This document shows, piece after piece, positions 1,973 through 64,000 of a DNA stretch of 64,000 nt. Below the pieces are notes generated by a model, which saw nothing but the letters and a program-made list of their open reading frames with translations, made no database searches and had not been told where the DNA came from. The translations under genes were made by a program, and so were the position numbers. Numbering within the stretch: the stretch's first letter is position 1; each line of letters opens with the position of its first letter. Where the stretch lies: the NCBI RefSeq assembly GCF_011039275.1, contig NZ_JAAKGB010000001.1, positions 1,736,001 to 1,800,000 of the forward strand. The letters are read 5' to 3'. The stretch is from Streptococcus hyointestinalis (lineage in GTDB: Bacteria; Bacillota; Bacilli; Lactobacillales; Streptococcaceae).

Positions 1973-4900
1973 TTAGATATCTGTAATCTTGATAAAGGTT
2001 GAAGGGAGACCAACACGGTCTTCTGCATAACGACTTTGTTCAGACCAGAGTTGAGAGATAGGGTACCAACCAGATAACATTGGTGTATAAGGGTCAGATA
2101 CATAAGTCTTGCCATTATTGTAGCCTTTTAGGACAAGCTCATGGCTACCATTTCTGACAAAAATGTCATTTTGCACAGCTGCCATCACATGATAGCCTTC
2201 TTGCAGAGCGGTTGCAACAGCAGAAAGACTTGGTAGCGGTGTTGCTGTGTAGCCCCAATGGTCAACAGCTTTTAGTAACCCTACAGCTCCTGTACCTGTC
2301 CACTGCTTGTTGAACTGGTCAGTGTTATTGTAGAGATAATCTGCCACAGTTGTTGGAAGGACTTCTTTTCCTGACAAGGAACTAAAGACCATAGCAAGGC
2401 TTGTTGGCACACAGCCTGTTTTATCTAGATTAGACAAGCCATAAACCTTACTTGCCCATCTTGGATCACGTTGACGGTAGTAAGGAGTCTTATAATTGAC
2501 TCGATCAACAGTGAAGGTATTCGCAACCAAGAAATTAGACTTGCCATTTTCTACTTGATAGACATGGACATGATAAGTGCCTGTATCGGCATGGTCAGTG
2601 ACGTTGATTCTTGTCACAGCTTGGCTATTTTGATGGCTAGAAGCATACCATTTCAAATCATCTTGTCCCTTGGCATCAGACCAAACGGCAAACAAAATAT
2701 CTCCTGAACTTGGCACAGCAGTTGCTCTTAGCTCGTAATTACCAGTACCTTTGTAGGTGGCAGTGACTGCTTTAGGCACTTCAAAGCGGTAAGTACCTAG
2801 GCTGACAGCGTAGGTCGTGCCGTCTGTAAAGTCGGTGTAGACATGCACATAGTAGTCATCGCTATTGCCTGCATGATTTTTAATGTCTACCGTTTGACGG
2901 ACTTGATTGTTGTTAGCTGTTGGGGTGTACCACTTGACGTCATCTTGGTCTTTGTCCGCTGACCAAACAGCGATACGAGAGCCCTTAATTTGTTTCGTCT
3001 TGTCACTTCCTGTTACAACCACATCAAAAGTCGTTTTGGTCTTATCATAATTGACTACCTTAACTTCTGGCTTAGCTGGTTCTGGTACATCAATGTGGTA
3101 AGTACCTAAGCTGACAGCATAAGTCGTGCCATCTGTGAAGTCAGTGTAGACATGCACATAGTAGTCATCGCTATTGCCTGCATGGTTTTTAATGTCTACC
3201 GTTTGACGGACTTGATTGTTGTTAGCTGTTGGGGTGTACCACTTGACGTCATCTTGGTCTTTGTCCGCTGACCAAACAGCGATACGAGAGCCCTTGATTG
3301 GTTTCGTCTTGTCACTTCCTGTTACAACCACATCAAAAGTCGTTTTGGTCTTATCATAATTGACTACCTTAACTTCTGGCTTAGCTGGTTCTGGTACATC
3401 AATGTGGTAAGTACCTAAGCTGACAGCATAAGTCGTGCCATCTGTGAAGTCAGTGTAGACATGCACATAGTAGTCATCGCTATTGCCTGCATGGTTTTTA
3501 ATGTCTACCGTTTGACGGACTTGGTTATTGCTGGCTGTTGGGGTGTACCACTTGACGTCATCTTGGTCTTTGTCCGCTGACCAAACAGCGATACGAGAGC
3601 CCTTGATTTGTTTCGTCTTGTCACTTCCTGTTACAACGACGTCAAAAGTGGTCTTGGTCTTATCGTAGTTAACAACCTTAACCTCTGGTTTGGCGGGTTC
3701 TGGAACGTCAATGTGATAAGTACCTAAGCTGACAGCGTAGGTCGTGCCGTCCGTAAAATCGGTGTAGACATGCACATAATAATCATCGCTATTACCTGCA
3801 TGATTTTTAATGTCTACCGTTTGACGGACTTGATTGTTGTTAGCTGTTGGGGTGTACCACTTGACGTCATCTTGGTCTTTGTCCGCTGACCAAACAGCGA
3901 TACGAGAGCCCTTAATTTGTTTCGTCTTGTCACTTCCTGTTACAACGACGTCAAAAGTGGTCTTGGTCTTATCGTAGTTAACAACCTTAACCTCTGGTTT
4001 GGCGGGTTCTGGAACGTCAATGTGATAAGTACCTAAGCTGACAGCGTAGGTCGTGCCGTCCGTAAAATCGGTGTAGACATGCACATAATAATCATCGCTA
4101 TTACCTGCATGATTTTTAATGTCTACCGTTTGACGGACTTGATTGTTGTTAGCTGTTGGGGTGTACCACTTGACGTCATCTTGGTCTTTGTCCGCTGACC
4201 AAACAGCGATACGAGAGCCCTTAATTTGTTTCGTCTTGTCACTTCCTGTTACAACCACATCAAAAGTCGTTTTGGTCTTATCATAATTGACTACCTTAAC
4301 TTCTGGCTTAGCTGGTTCTGGTACATCAATGTGGTAAGTACCTAAGCTGACAGCGTAGGTCGTGCCGTCCGTAAAATCGGTGTAGACATGCACATAATAA
4401 TCATCGCTATTACCTGCATGATTTTTAATGTCTACCGTTTGACGGACTTGGTTATTGCTGGCTGTTGGGGTGTACCACTTAATGTCATCTTGGTCTTTGT
4501 CCGCTGACCAAACAGCAATACGAGAACCCTTGATTTGTTTCGTTTTGTCGCTACCTGTTACAACGACGTCAAAAGTGGTCTTGGTCTTATCGTAGTTAAC
4601 AACCTTGACCTCTGGCTTAGCGGGTTCTGGAACGTCAATGTGATAAGTACCTAAGCTGACAGCGTAGGTTGTGCCGTCCGTGAAGTCGGTGTAGACATGC
4701 ACATAGTAGTTATCACTATTGCCTGCATGATTTTTAATGTCTACCGTTTGATGGACTTGGTTATTGCTGGCTGTTGGGGTGTACCACTTAATGTCATCTT
4801 GGTCTTTGTCCGCTGACCAAACAGCAATACGAGAACCTTTGATTTGTTTTGTCTTATCGCTACCTGTTACAACCACATCAAAGGTTGTTTTAGTTTTGTC

Positions 4901-5794
4901 ATAATTAACGACCTTAACCTCTGGTTTGGCGGGTTCTGGAACGTCAATGTGATAAGTACCTAAGCTGACAGCGTAGGTCGTGCCGTCCGTAAAATCGGTG
5001 TAGACATGCACATAATAATCATCGCTAGTACCGGCATGGTCTAAAATATTGATGGTTTGGCGGATTTGGTTGTTAACGGCTGCTGGCGTGTACCATTTGA
5101 GGTCGTCTTGACCTTTGTCGGCTGACCAAACGGCGATACGAGCGCCTTTGACAGCTTTAGTGCTAGCGTTTCCCACAACGGCAACATCAAAAGTAGTTTT
5201 ATCTTTGTCATAGTTGATAACGCCAACTGCTGGATTGCTAGACTCTTCGTTACCTGCAGAAGCTTTTTCTTCTGCTACTGTGGCAGTTGCTGGCTCCAAT
5301 CCTTCGCTAGCAGATCTTTGTGTAGTCGCACTTGTGTCAGCTGACTTAGCTACTTCTGATGTTTCTTGCGTAGTGACTGCTGTAGCGCTAGCAGCTTCCG
5401 AAGCAGCAACGCTCTCTGTGCTCGCTACACTACTAGCACTTTCGCTAGTACCTGTTGTGCTAGCTTCCTCGCTCGTTGCTGCAACAACCGCTACTTCTGA
5501 CGTCTGCTCAACGGCTTGACTGGCTGCTTCAGAAGAAGTTGACGTAGCTGCGGTTGAAGTGTCACTTACCGTCTCTTGCGGACTTGCGACAACGGTCTCA
5601 GTGTTACTTGCTTGTGGCTGCGTTGCTGTCACTTGGTCGGCTTGTACACCACCAGAAAAGAAAACAGCTGTCCCAAGCAAAGCCGATACGGCACCCAAAG
5701 TAGACACTTTGCGAATACCGAAGCGTTGCTTACGAACAGTTCTGTGTTGATGTAATCTCTCCATACGTGAATAGTGCATCCTAAATATCCTCAT
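1973..5794 (-). CDS. Large secreted protein: YSIRK-like signal, GBS Bsp-like repeats, C39-family peptidase domain
   Basis: 1273 residues. Residues 20-52 form a long signal peptide with a YSIRK-type variant (FGIRKVSTLGAVSALLG), probably cut after VQA. Residues 53-190 are Ser/Thr/Ala/Glu-rich. Residues 192-1015 hold eight near-identical 103-residue repeats (core IAVWSADKDQDDVKWYTPT, YYVHVYTDFTDGTTYAVSLG), which I recognise as GBS Bsp-like repeats; a divergent ninth follows. Residues 1099-1273 are a C39_2 peptidase-like domain with Cys1128 (TGCVPTSLAMV), His1218 (GSHELVLKGY) and Asp1234. There is no LPXTG sorting signal or C-terminal membrane anchor; LPSTF near the end is not followed by a hydrophobic tail. 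It is probably a wall-associated or released enzyme. The promoter is TTGAAA (5838-5843), 17 bp, TAACAT (5815-5820). Confidence 0.88.
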   Translation of the reverse strand: MRIFRMHYSRMERLHQHRTVRKQRFGIRKVSTLGAVSALLGTAVFFSGGVQADQVTATQPQASNTETVVASPQETVSDTSTAATSTSSEAASQAVEQTSEVAVVAATSEEASTTGTSESASSVASTESVAASEAASATAVTTQETSEVAKSADTSATTQRSASEGLEPATATVAEEKASAGNEESSNPAVGVINYDKDKTTFDVAVVGNASTKAVKGARIAVWSADKGQDDLKWYTPAAVNNQIRQTINILDHAGTSDDYYVHVYTDFTDGTTYAVSLGTYHIDVPEPAKPEVKVVNYDKTKTTFDVVVTGSDKTKQIKGSRIAVWSADKDQDDIKWYTPTASNNQVHQTVDIKNHAGNSDNYYVHVYTDFTDGTTYAVSLGTYHIDVPEPAKPEVKVVNYDKTKTTFDVVVTGSDKTKQIKGSRIAVWSADKDQDDIKWYTPTASNNQVRQTVDIKNHAGNSDDYYVHVYTDFTDGTTYAVSLGTYHIDVPEPAKPEVKVVNYDKTKTTFDVVVTGSDKTKQIKGSRIAVWSADKDQDDVKWYTPTANNNQVRQTVDIKNHAGNSDDYYVHVYTDFTDGTTYAVSLGTYHIDVPEPAKPEVKVVNYDKTKTTFDVVVTGSDKTKQIKGSRIAVWSADKDQDDVKWYTPTANNNQVRQTVDIKNHAGNSDDYYVHVYTDFTDGTTYAVSLGTYHIDVPEPAKPEVKVVNYDKTKTTFDVVVTGSDKTKQIKGSRIAVWSADKDQDDVKWYTPTASNNQVRQTVDIKNHAGNSDDYYVHVYTDFTDGTTYAVSLGTYHIDVPEPAKPEVKVVNYDKTKTTFDVVVTGSDKTKPIKGSRIAVWSADKDQDDVKWYTPTANNNQVRQTVDIKNHAGNSDDYYVHVYTDFTDGTTYAVSLGTYHIDVPEPAKPEVKVVNYDKTKTTFDVVVTGSDKTKQIKGSRIAVWSADKDQDDVKWYTPTANNNQVRQTVDIKNHAGNSDDYYVHVYTDFTDGTTYAVSLGTYRFEVPKAVTATYKGTGNYELRATAVPSSGDILFAVWSDAKGQDDLKWYASSHQNSQAVTRINVTDHADTGTYHVHVYQVENGKSNFLVANTFTVDRVNYKTPYYRQRDPRWASKVYGLSNLDKTGCVPTSLAMVFSSLSGKEVLPTTVADYLYNNTDQFNKQWTGTGAVGLLKAVDHWGYTATPLPSLSAVATALQEGYHVMAAVQNDIFVRNGSHELVLKGYNNGKTYVSDPYTPMLSGWYPISQLWSEQSRYAEDRVGLPSTFIKITDI
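2761..5240 (-). repeat. Tandem 309-bp coding repeats in the surface-protein gene
   Basis: Eight full units of 309 bp (103 codons) are in frame, plus a diverged ninth at the 3' end of the gene. The same site recurs at 3091 and 3400. Units differ mainly by silent changes that fall into two sequence classes (for example ccacatcaaaagtcgtt versus cgacgtcaaaagtggtc), mixed in a mosaic along the array. Confidence 0.95.
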
Positions 5795-5890: not shown

Positions 5891-6439
5891 TTATTTCAAC
5901 TTGTCTTTTTCATAGACATGGCTCAACTCTAGATTTGGAAATGACTGCTGGCGCAGCGCTTCATAGACAATCATGCAGGCAGTGTTTGAGAGGTTGAGGC
6001 TTCTGACGTGCTGGTCATTCATAGGGATACGCAGAGCCTTGTCAGCATGTTGGCGCATAAAATCCTCTGGCAAACCCTTATCCTCACGCCCAAACAAAAA
6101 GTAGTGGGCACAGCCATCGTTATACTTTTCCTCAGAATAAACACGACTAGCAAACTTACTAATCAAGTGGAGTTTGCCATCACAAGCCTCTAAAAACTCC
6201 TCTAGACTATCGTAAAACGTCACATCAAGCTTGTCCCAATAATCAAGCCCAGCACGCTTCATTTTCTTGTCATCAATAGGAAAACCCATAGGGCGAATGA
6301 TATGAAGGGGGCTGTTGGTCGCAGCGCAGGTACGGGCGATATTGCCAGTATTAGCTGGAATCTGTGGTTCAAATAAAACGATGTGGTTAGAACTGCTGTC
6401 ACTGCGGTGGTTTTGCTGGCTGAGTGCTTCGATATTCAT
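5891..6439 (-). CDS. trmL: tRNA (cytidine(34)-2'-O)-methyltransferase TrmL (SpoU/SPOUT family)
   Basis: 182 residues. After a 20-residue streptococcal-style extension the protein shows [20 protein letters not shown] (SPOUT motif 1), then LIFG-like [16 protein letters not shown] (motif 2) and [28 protein letters not shown] (motif 3), the knotted SAM site of TrmL. The enzyme 2'-O-methylates the wobble base of tRNA-Leu isoacceptors. It is transcribed alone from a strong promoter through a roughly 120-nt structured leader that ends in a terminator-like hairpin just before the start codon, so read-through control is likely. Confidence 0.92.
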
Positions 6440-6462
6440 GCTGATCCTCTCTTAAACATAAT

Positions 6463-6561
6463 AAAAACCACATTGCCCGGAGTCAAGCTCAGCAAACAAT
6501 GTGGTTGTGGTTGCTCGCTACCTTAAATCATAACAGGTTTGATTTAAAACAACGAATCGTT
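6463..6561 (-). promoter_or_regulatory. Structured 5' leader of trmL with terminator-like hairpin (possible attenuator or small RNA)
   Basis: On the minus strand the leader holds a 7-bp hairpin (TTAAATC/GATTTAA, 6523-6547) and then a 10-bp stem (AACCACATTG/CAATGTGGTT, 6466-6506) followed by TTTTTATTATG. The second hairpin looks like an intrinsic terminator located before the trmL start rather than after a gene. It could be an attenuator or end a short independent RNA. A link to the Lactobacillales '23S-methyl' type of leader is possible but not tested. Confidence 0.6.
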
Positions 6562-6567
6562 ATCACT

Positions 6568-6595
6568 ATTATAACACTTATGGACTATCTGTCAA
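6568..6595 (-). promoter_or_regulatory. Strong sigma-A promoter of the trmL leader
   Basis: TTGACA (minus strand, 6590-6595), 16-bp spacer, TATAAT (6568-6573): both hexamers are consensus. Confidence 0.85.
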
Positions 6596-6631
6596 TAGCT
6601 TTTTGAGGATTTTTTAGGCGAGATATGATTT

Positions 6632-6985
6632 TTATCTTTGCTTATCCCCATAAGTCAAAATCCCATCAATGACAAAACCATAGCTTAAGCTCATGAAGTT
6701 GACTGCAAGAGTTAAGACCCAGCCATAGCCCATCATATAATCAAAATAAGTCACGCAAAGTCCAATAACAAAAGCAATCATAGGTCCTCTTAGATACCAC
6801 TTACCCTCTAAAGCTATATGACCTAGCGCAACAGCAAGACCTAGCCCCATGCGATTAAGCATCAAAAAGAAAAGATTGTCCAATGTGAACGGTACTTGTA
6901 AAAAGAAGATAGCAGACCACCAGCAAAAAACTCCGCAGATAAGTCCTAATAATAGCCCTACTCCTATTGTTGTTCCTTTTTTCAT
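6632..6985 (-). CDS. Small membrane protein, unknown function
   Basis: 117 residues with four hydrophobic segments (roughly 8-30, 38-58, 66-86 and 88-110). I recognise no motif. It starts 1 bp after the stop of the DJ-1/PfpI gene and is last in the ArsR-controlled operon, so it is probably co-expressed with that protein. A transport or membrane stress role is conceivable but unsupported by sequence. Confidence 0.75.
   Translation of the reverse strand: MKKGTTIGVGLLLGLICGVFCWWSAIFFLQVPFTLDNLFFLMLNRMGLGLAVALGHIALEGKWYLRGPMIAFVIGLCVTYFDYMMGYGWVLTLAVNFMSLSYGFVIDGILTYGDKQR

Positions 6986-62540: not shown

Positions 62541-64000
<1,460 letters not shown>

Follow-up and report, generated by a model that had tools for sequence, protein, structure and literature searches.

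A 23S-methyl RNA with a conserved terminator tip upstream of trmL in Streptococcus hyointestinalis and its relatives

Background

TrmL and QueG are enzymes of tRNA wobble position 34. In a stretch of 64,000 nucleotides from Streptococcus hyointestinalis (contig NZ_JAAKGB010000001.1, positions 1,736,001 to 1,800,000 of the forward strand; referred to as the window), trmL is preceded by a strong promoter and by a leader with a terminator-like hairpin just before the start codon. This raises the question of what such a leader does in front of a tRNA-modification gene, and whether it controls trmL or is an RNA in its own right. A first-pass annotation, made from the sequence alone, regarded the arrangement as uncommon and proposed either that the leader senses tRNA, translation or a metabolite, or that it is a small RNA with trmL expressed by read-through.

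Several published reports contain observations on the RNA family concerned, 23S-methyl, which was originally described in 2007, as cited in PMC7724050. In Enterococcus faecalis and E. faecium the motif corresponds to sRNA_111 and sRNA_106, respectively, which are about 90% identical and, according to the authors, were validated by northern blotting (PMC7724050). In S. pyogenes M49, an 84-nt RNA labelled 23S-methyl (sRNASpy490305) was seen on a tiling array, with log2 values for rich versus defined medium of -2.50, -3.03, -2.10 and -3.59 over two media and two growth phases (PMC3542284). The RNA is also listed in the core regions of S. agalactiae (PMC6064168). No mechanism for 23S-methyl or TrmL leaders was found in the literature searched, which covers few subscription journals.

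In this study, we report a comparative analysis of the leader in the window and of its counterparts in related genomes, and weigh the explanations that have been or can be offered for it.

Methods

Families of genomes were labelled f1 to f9; "lactic-acid bacteria" and Streptococcus, as names for them, are our own inference. Gene calls around the motif, including those of upstream neighbours and convergent genes, are longest-ORF guesses. Eight loci in which the motif was judged absent or cut by a contig end (L075, L076, L078 and L080-L084) were excluded from the tip-pattern search, the promoter and U-tract counts and the comparison of rRNA positions. Four second copies (L073, L074, L077 and L079) were excluded from the own-versus-swapped, antiterminator, promoter and U-tract, and rRNA-position tests. 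The tip-pattern search missed seven sequences, which are absent from the hairpin-2 alignment and from the own-versus-swapped and antiterminator tests. The f4 loci and L061 were omitted from the own-versus-swapped and alternative-hairpin tests, and L055 was omitted from the promoter count as it had too little upstream sequence.

Results and discussion

Promoter, leader and terminator in front of trmL

The features of the locus, in window coordinates, are as follows.

6568..6595, minus strand: promoter; -35 TTGACA at 6595-6590, -10 TATAAT at 6573-6568, TG at 6576-6575, spacer 16, 12/12 consensus
6461..6558, minus strand: Rfam RF01065 23S-methyl RNA; 87.7 bits (gathering score 50), full-length match
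6514..6556, minus strand: hairpin 1, from the fold; 17 pairs, 9-nt loop AACCUGUUA at 6539-6531
6466..6506, minus strand: hairpin 2, from the fold; terminator stem with conserved tip, 2-nt bulge CU at 6492-6491, GAG/CUC, loop CUUGA
6458..6467, minus strand: U-tract TTTTTATTAT, from the sequence; expected 3' end of the terminated RNA
6446..6451, minus strand: ribosome-binding-site-like GAGAGG, from the sequence
5891..6439, minus strand: trmL, tRNA wobble-34 2'-O-methyltransferase, 182 aa, by TIGR00185

The near-ideal promoter (TTGACA-16-TATAAT) claimed in the first-pass annotation was borne out, its site at 6595-6568 ranking first among ten promoter-like sites on both strands between 5000 and 8000, where shuffled sequences averaged 4.5 sites of at least 9/12. 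Transcription probably starts at about 6561, so that the leader up to the ATG at 6439 would span about 122 nt and the terminated RNA about 100 nt. The proposed leader of about 120 nt, with two hairpins of which the second is a terminator, was likewise recovered: the region 6561-6450 folds into two hairpins at -32 kcal/mol (z -3.12), a value equalled by 1 of 200 shuffles, the hairpin-2 terminator lies about 20 nt upstream of the trmL start, and the 3' end of the terminated RNA is expected inside the U-tract, at about 6464-6458. Since a consensus scan picked up no more of hairpin 2 than its inner 5 pairs as terminator-like (one of 5 sites, versus 2.9 in shuffles), it is the whole stem, the U-tract and their conservation that make the case for a terminator.

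Two other candidates at the locus were rejected. A promoter TTGACT-17-TATTAT within hairpin 2 appeared, by eye, not to be conserved in other sequences, and a plus-strand Rfam match at 6512-6615 (25.2 bits) fell below the gathering score and was read as an echo of the palindromes.

The trmL product scored 187.1 bits against TIGR00185 (E 1.7e-55), just below the model cut-off of 190.6. The same model was matched in all 295 genomes of the order and above its cut-off in 204; in a few genomes, for example G200, G365 and G383, the best match was weak (E 1e-10 to 1e-12) and may represent a paralogue.

Further along the minus strand of the window, an FMN riboswitch (RF00050, 120.1 bits) was found at 1801-1930, separated from trmL by a large gene at 1973-5794, also on the minus strand. 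Its product is a surface-type protein of 1273 aa that contains about seven tandem repeats, nearly identical to one another, and its C-terminal part resembles a cysteine peptidase by eye. A published table places the 23S-methyl RNA of S. pyogenes M49, the gene after it and an FMN RNA side by side (PMC3542284).

The leader is a 23S-methyl RNA

The first-pass annotation had suggested a covariance-model search against Rfam and had named 23S-methyl; the match obtained was to that family, RF01065, and aligned model positions 1-102 of 102. Besides the score, the element has two covarying hairpins, a U-tract after the second hairpin and a methyltransferase gene downstream, a position before a predicted RNA methyltransferase gene (here trmL) being a feature of the family. 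The leader element therefore belongs to an already catalogued Rfam family of lactic-acid bacteria and their relatives.

The motif was present in 190 of 196 genomes of the host's own family, where it is thus nearly universal, and in 194 of 295 genomes of the order. A laboratory strain of Lactococcus lactis, included as a control genome, also carries it. A class-wide draw recovered it in 21 of 250 genomes, all 21 belonging to the same order. The view that the arrangement is uncommon was accordingly not supported.

Conservation of the hairpins, tip, promoter and U-tract

Hairpin 2 was aligned in 43 sequences, hand-picked for diversity from seven families: 95.2% of cells hold standard pairs and both sides have changed in 12 of the 17 pairs, whereas pairing falls to 31-47% in slid controls. 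Hairpin 1, in 33 sequences (32 distinct) hand-picked in the same way from three families, is paired in 94.9% of cells, again with both-side changes in 12 of 17 pairs; its loop carries an invariant CUGU in these sequences and differs in other families. Conservation of the stems in other species, a point on which the first-pass annotation had made its proposal depend, is thus found for both hairpins and with covariation, which places the observation far beyond chance. The presence of a promoter, a two-hairpin leader and a terminator before trmL is confirmed as real.

The tip of hairpin 2 is nearly fixed, with the consensus U-Y-G, a 2-nt bulge C-N, G-W-G, a variable loop, C-W-C and C-G, its middle pair being U-A in 33 and A-U in 10 of the 43 sequences. 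The complete motif UYG-CN-GWG-loop-CWC-CG occurs in 145 of 153 genomes. A fixed tip on an otherwise freely varying stem is best explained as a recognition site. The comparison narrows the search for a mechanism, the most conserved feature being the small bulged tip of the terminator hairpin.

Just upstream of the motif, a promoter-like site of at least 9/12 was found in 98 of 131 loci, compared with 312 of 2620 shuffles; such sites were present at all 51 own-family loci and at 47 of 80 loci elsewhere, among them 1 of 6 in f6. A terminal U-tract (at least 6 T in 8) was present at every one of the 132 loci.

Genes next to the RNA

Next to the terminator, on its downstream side, 107 of 153 genomes have trmL, 24 queG, 9 ddl, 4 another non-convergent gene and 9 a convergent one, so that a co-directional trmL, queG or ddl comes next in 140. 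For the own family, trmL takes this place in 49 of 51 genomes, the upstream neighbour being variable in size and strand. All 24 queG genomes have trmL further along the same strand, 20 by the sequence of the locus itself and four by the genome positions of the TIGR00185 matches, as do five of the nine ddl genomes, the sequences of the other four ending too early to show it. The nine genomes with ddl directly after the RNA belong to f6 (L195-L199; L125-L127, L129), and queG then trmL follow ddl in the five with enough sequence. The neighbour proteins sampled had matches to QueG (405.5 bits with TIGR00276), to D-alanine ligase and to the RlmA family. As the usual downstream genes, trmL and queG, encode enzymes of tRNA wobble position 34, and not of 23S rRNA methylation, the family name 23S-methyl is misleading as to the target.

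Within the available sequence, 88 of 153 loci carry an RlmA-like gene upstream of the motif (86 of 102 outside the own family and 2 of 51 inside it), one locus having almost no upstream sequence. Two RlmA-like proteins scored 138.5 and 152.5 bits against PRK11088, well below its cut-off of 303, and the RlmA zinc ribbon (Pfam) was above cut-off in one of the two. The motif persists in genomes without an RlmA match at E 1e-10 (G000, which is 89.5% complete, G045, G275, G356 and G199), so RlmA is no needed partner; an RlmA match without the motif occurs in, for example, G198, G201 and G208. RlmA was rejected as a partner of the RNA, the association being positional only.

In the own family, by a rough start-codon rule, the distance from the U-tract to the trmL start has a median of 26 nt and is at most 40 nt in 38 of 49 genomes. 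This leaves little room for a second promoter, and trmL therefore most likely relies on read-through, a possibility that the first-pass annotation had raised.

A proposed terminated leader with a putative tip-binding factor

The best reading of the locus, to which we give an even chance of being correct, is that of a terminated leader in which a putative factor bound to the tip would set read-through into trmL. Transcription would start at the strong promoter about 122 nt upstream of trmL; most transcripts would stop at the hairpin-2 terminator, leaving a stable RNA some 100 nt long, and the fraction reading through would express trmL. The bulged tip of hairpin 2 would be the recognition site for a putative trans-acting factor, most likely a protein, and the factor, once bound, would set how often RNA polymerase passes the terminator. 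Hairpin 1 may shield the 5' end and could possibly provide a second contact for the factor.

This reading builds on what is visible in the sequences, namely the promoter, both hairpins with their covariation, the U-tract, the conserved tip and the gene order. It also builds on published work for the existence of the small RNA and its medium-dependent level. The factor itself, the direction of control and the absence of another trmL promoter are what we infer.

The reading is favoured because trmL, queG or ddl follows co-directionally in 140 of 153 genomes while the upstream neighbour varies within the own family, because the tip is kept in 145 of 153 genomes and lost more often at convergent loci, because all 132 loci have the U-tract and its gap to trmL is short in most own-family genomes, and because the 84-nt RNA listed for S. 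pyogenes M49 is medium-dependent (PMC3542284). Against it stand the retention of the tip at 6 of 9 convergent loci, where it would be needless for a purely cis-acting element, the occurrence of hairpin-2-like terminators also behind a tRNA gene in one genus, and promoter-like scores that are weaker in the other families, where 47 of 80 loci reach the threshold.

Uncoupled loci, second copies and a possible stand-alone RNA

Another explanation, possible but less than evenly probable in our judgement, is that of a stand-alone small RNA acting in trans, on a protein or a base-paired target, from which trmL would borrow its promoter through leaky termination. In its favour are the nine of 153 genomes, from five genera, in which the next gene is convergent: the RNA can therefore persist uncoupled from trmL, which is found 1.0 to 2.4 kb beyond it in three of these genomes, and six of the nine retain the tip. 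The promoter-like site in 98 of 131 loci, the universal U-tract and the single copy of the hairpin in most genomes would also suit an independent RNA gene, as would the Enterococcus RNAs sRNA_111 and sRNA_106, northern-validated on their authors' account (PMC7724050). With the S. pyogenes RNA (PMC3542284), these bear out the earlier suggestion that a small RNA is made, as far as the published data go.

Against an RNA acting on its own, trmL comes next in 49 of 51 own-family genomes, and the loops and linker vary across families, unlike an antisense seed, with only the tip conserved. The tip is moreover lost at three of the nine convergent loci versus 5 of the 144 others (Fisher p 0.007, uncorrected for kinship and overstating independence, as two of the three losses come from one genus), and four uncoupled loci score 7 to 11 of 12 as promoters. 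The loci L063, L067 and L071 combine a convergent next gene with an altered terminator tip, as if the tip decays without a direct co-directional target. The uncoupled loci point both ways, the RNA being able to outlast its direct link to trmL and the tip decaying more readily where that link is gone.

The hairpin-2 model matched 143 of 217 genomes, 136 of them with a single copy. A clear second copy with the same tip and without hairpin 1 was found in four genomes of one genus (L073, L074, L077 and L079; 1500-1580); in three of the four it lies behind the tRNA-Gln that ends a Glu-Thr-Tyr-Gln cluster (ARAGORN), the fourth locus being too short. The stems of these copies have diverged, with the tip nearly unchanged. 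Three weak extra matches (E 0.001-0.005) occurred in other genomes. A regulon built on the tip was rejected, given one copy in 136 of 143 genomes and a clear second copy in four only.

More tentatively still, and rather doubtfully, 23S-methyl, although classed as a cis-regulatory leader, may be a conserved small RNA gene of lactic-acid bacteria whose tip docks a putative RNA-binding protein, with trmL as a passenger and the terminator reused behind a tRNA cluster in one genus.

Alternative pairing within the leader

Were the leader a riboswitch or a classical attenuator, one of its two states would have a terminator arm paired with hairpin 1 or with the linker. The leader-plus-terminator architecture invites this explanation, but no conserved antiterminator was found: in 113 sequences, neither terminator arm paired with the upstream part of the leader any better than in dinucleotide shuffles (mean z for the 5' arm -0.15 in the own family and 0.23 in others; for the 3' arm 0.36 and 0.31). 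An attenuator with two exclusive folds is therefore unsupported, as is an RNA-only switch, and we consider the explanation improbable.

In some families an alternative hairpin is possible, in which the linker pairs with the 3' arm of hairpin 1 and about 3 nt at the base of the terminator are involved as well. It has 5 pairs or more in all 11 sequences from f3 (mean z -3.6) and in 14 of 15 from f8 (mean z -3.0). Examples of such pairs in f3 and f8 (e.g. L033, L111, L112) are GUUAGUGAA/UUCACUAAC, GUUGAUG/CAUCAAC and GUUGGUG/CGCCAAC. This hairpin could serve an attenuator in f3, f8 and some own-family members, but the version in the window is weak, at 3 pairs (z -0.24), and of 38 own-family sequences only 12 form 5 pairs or more. 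Judged from these sequences, it is clade-limited and outside the Rfam structure. Own pairing was better than swapped pairing in 60 of 93 sequences, a weak test in which the pieces cut some hairpins, so that the comparison with shuffles in 113 sequences carries more weight.

Of the earlier interpretation, the promoter, the hairpins, the terminator, the small RNA and, probably, read-through have stood, whereas the claim of something unusual or new and that of sensing by mutually exclusive folds have not. If a protein does set termination through the terminator tip, as in the terminated-leader reading preferred here, this would be a mode of attenuation without a competing RNA fold.

Feedback by TrmL or mimicry of rRNA or tRNA as an improbable alternative

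TrmL is the usual downstream gene, and the leader shares an 11-nt run with the host's own rRNA operon (maximum 10 in 20 shuffles; antisense 9, not above shuffles), while a 16-nt stretch at the tip of hairpin 2 matches 23S rRNA with two mismatches (window 63088-63103; chance expectation 0.54 at up to 3 mismatches). Feedback by TrmL, or mimicry of rRNA or tRNA by the leader, is nevertheless very improbable, as the 23S match lacks the family's invariant bulge and stem residues, the tip loop varies between families, and the tip is presumably unlike the anticodon loop of tRNA-Leu. Among 123 distinct leaders, the best shared rRNA position was common to 57 in sense, 61 in antisense and 72 when the leaders were reversed, compared with only 5 to 7 for independent shuffles, which break kinship; rRNA mimicry was rejected, since shared positions were no better than with reversed leaders.

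Comparison with known systems

T-box leaders are terminator leaders ahead of tRNA-related genes in Firmicutes. The element described here resembles them as a terminator leader before a tRNA-related gene and differs in having neither a T-box match nor antiterminator pairing, the T-box model giving no match in the window at its gathering score, nor at E up to 1 within 6300-6700.

With the L10, L20 and L21 ribosomal protein leaders, the element has in common a structured 5' leader RNA ahead of a translation-related gene; in contrast to them, no ribosomal protein gene lies downstream of it. We know of no protein that binds 23S-methyl RNA. In one published classification, 23S-methyl is placed among 5' UTR RNAs as a ribosomal leader, together with the ribosomal protein leaders (PMC6431027).

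The closest likeness is to RF01065 itself: a full-length match, two hairpins of which the second is a terminator, an RNA methyltransferase gene downstream and, in the class-wide sample, occurrence in the own order only. The window element departs nowhere from this family. What the present comparison adds to it is the consensus of the tip, the conservation of the promoter, the queG, ddl and RlmA-like neighbours, and the uncoupled copies.
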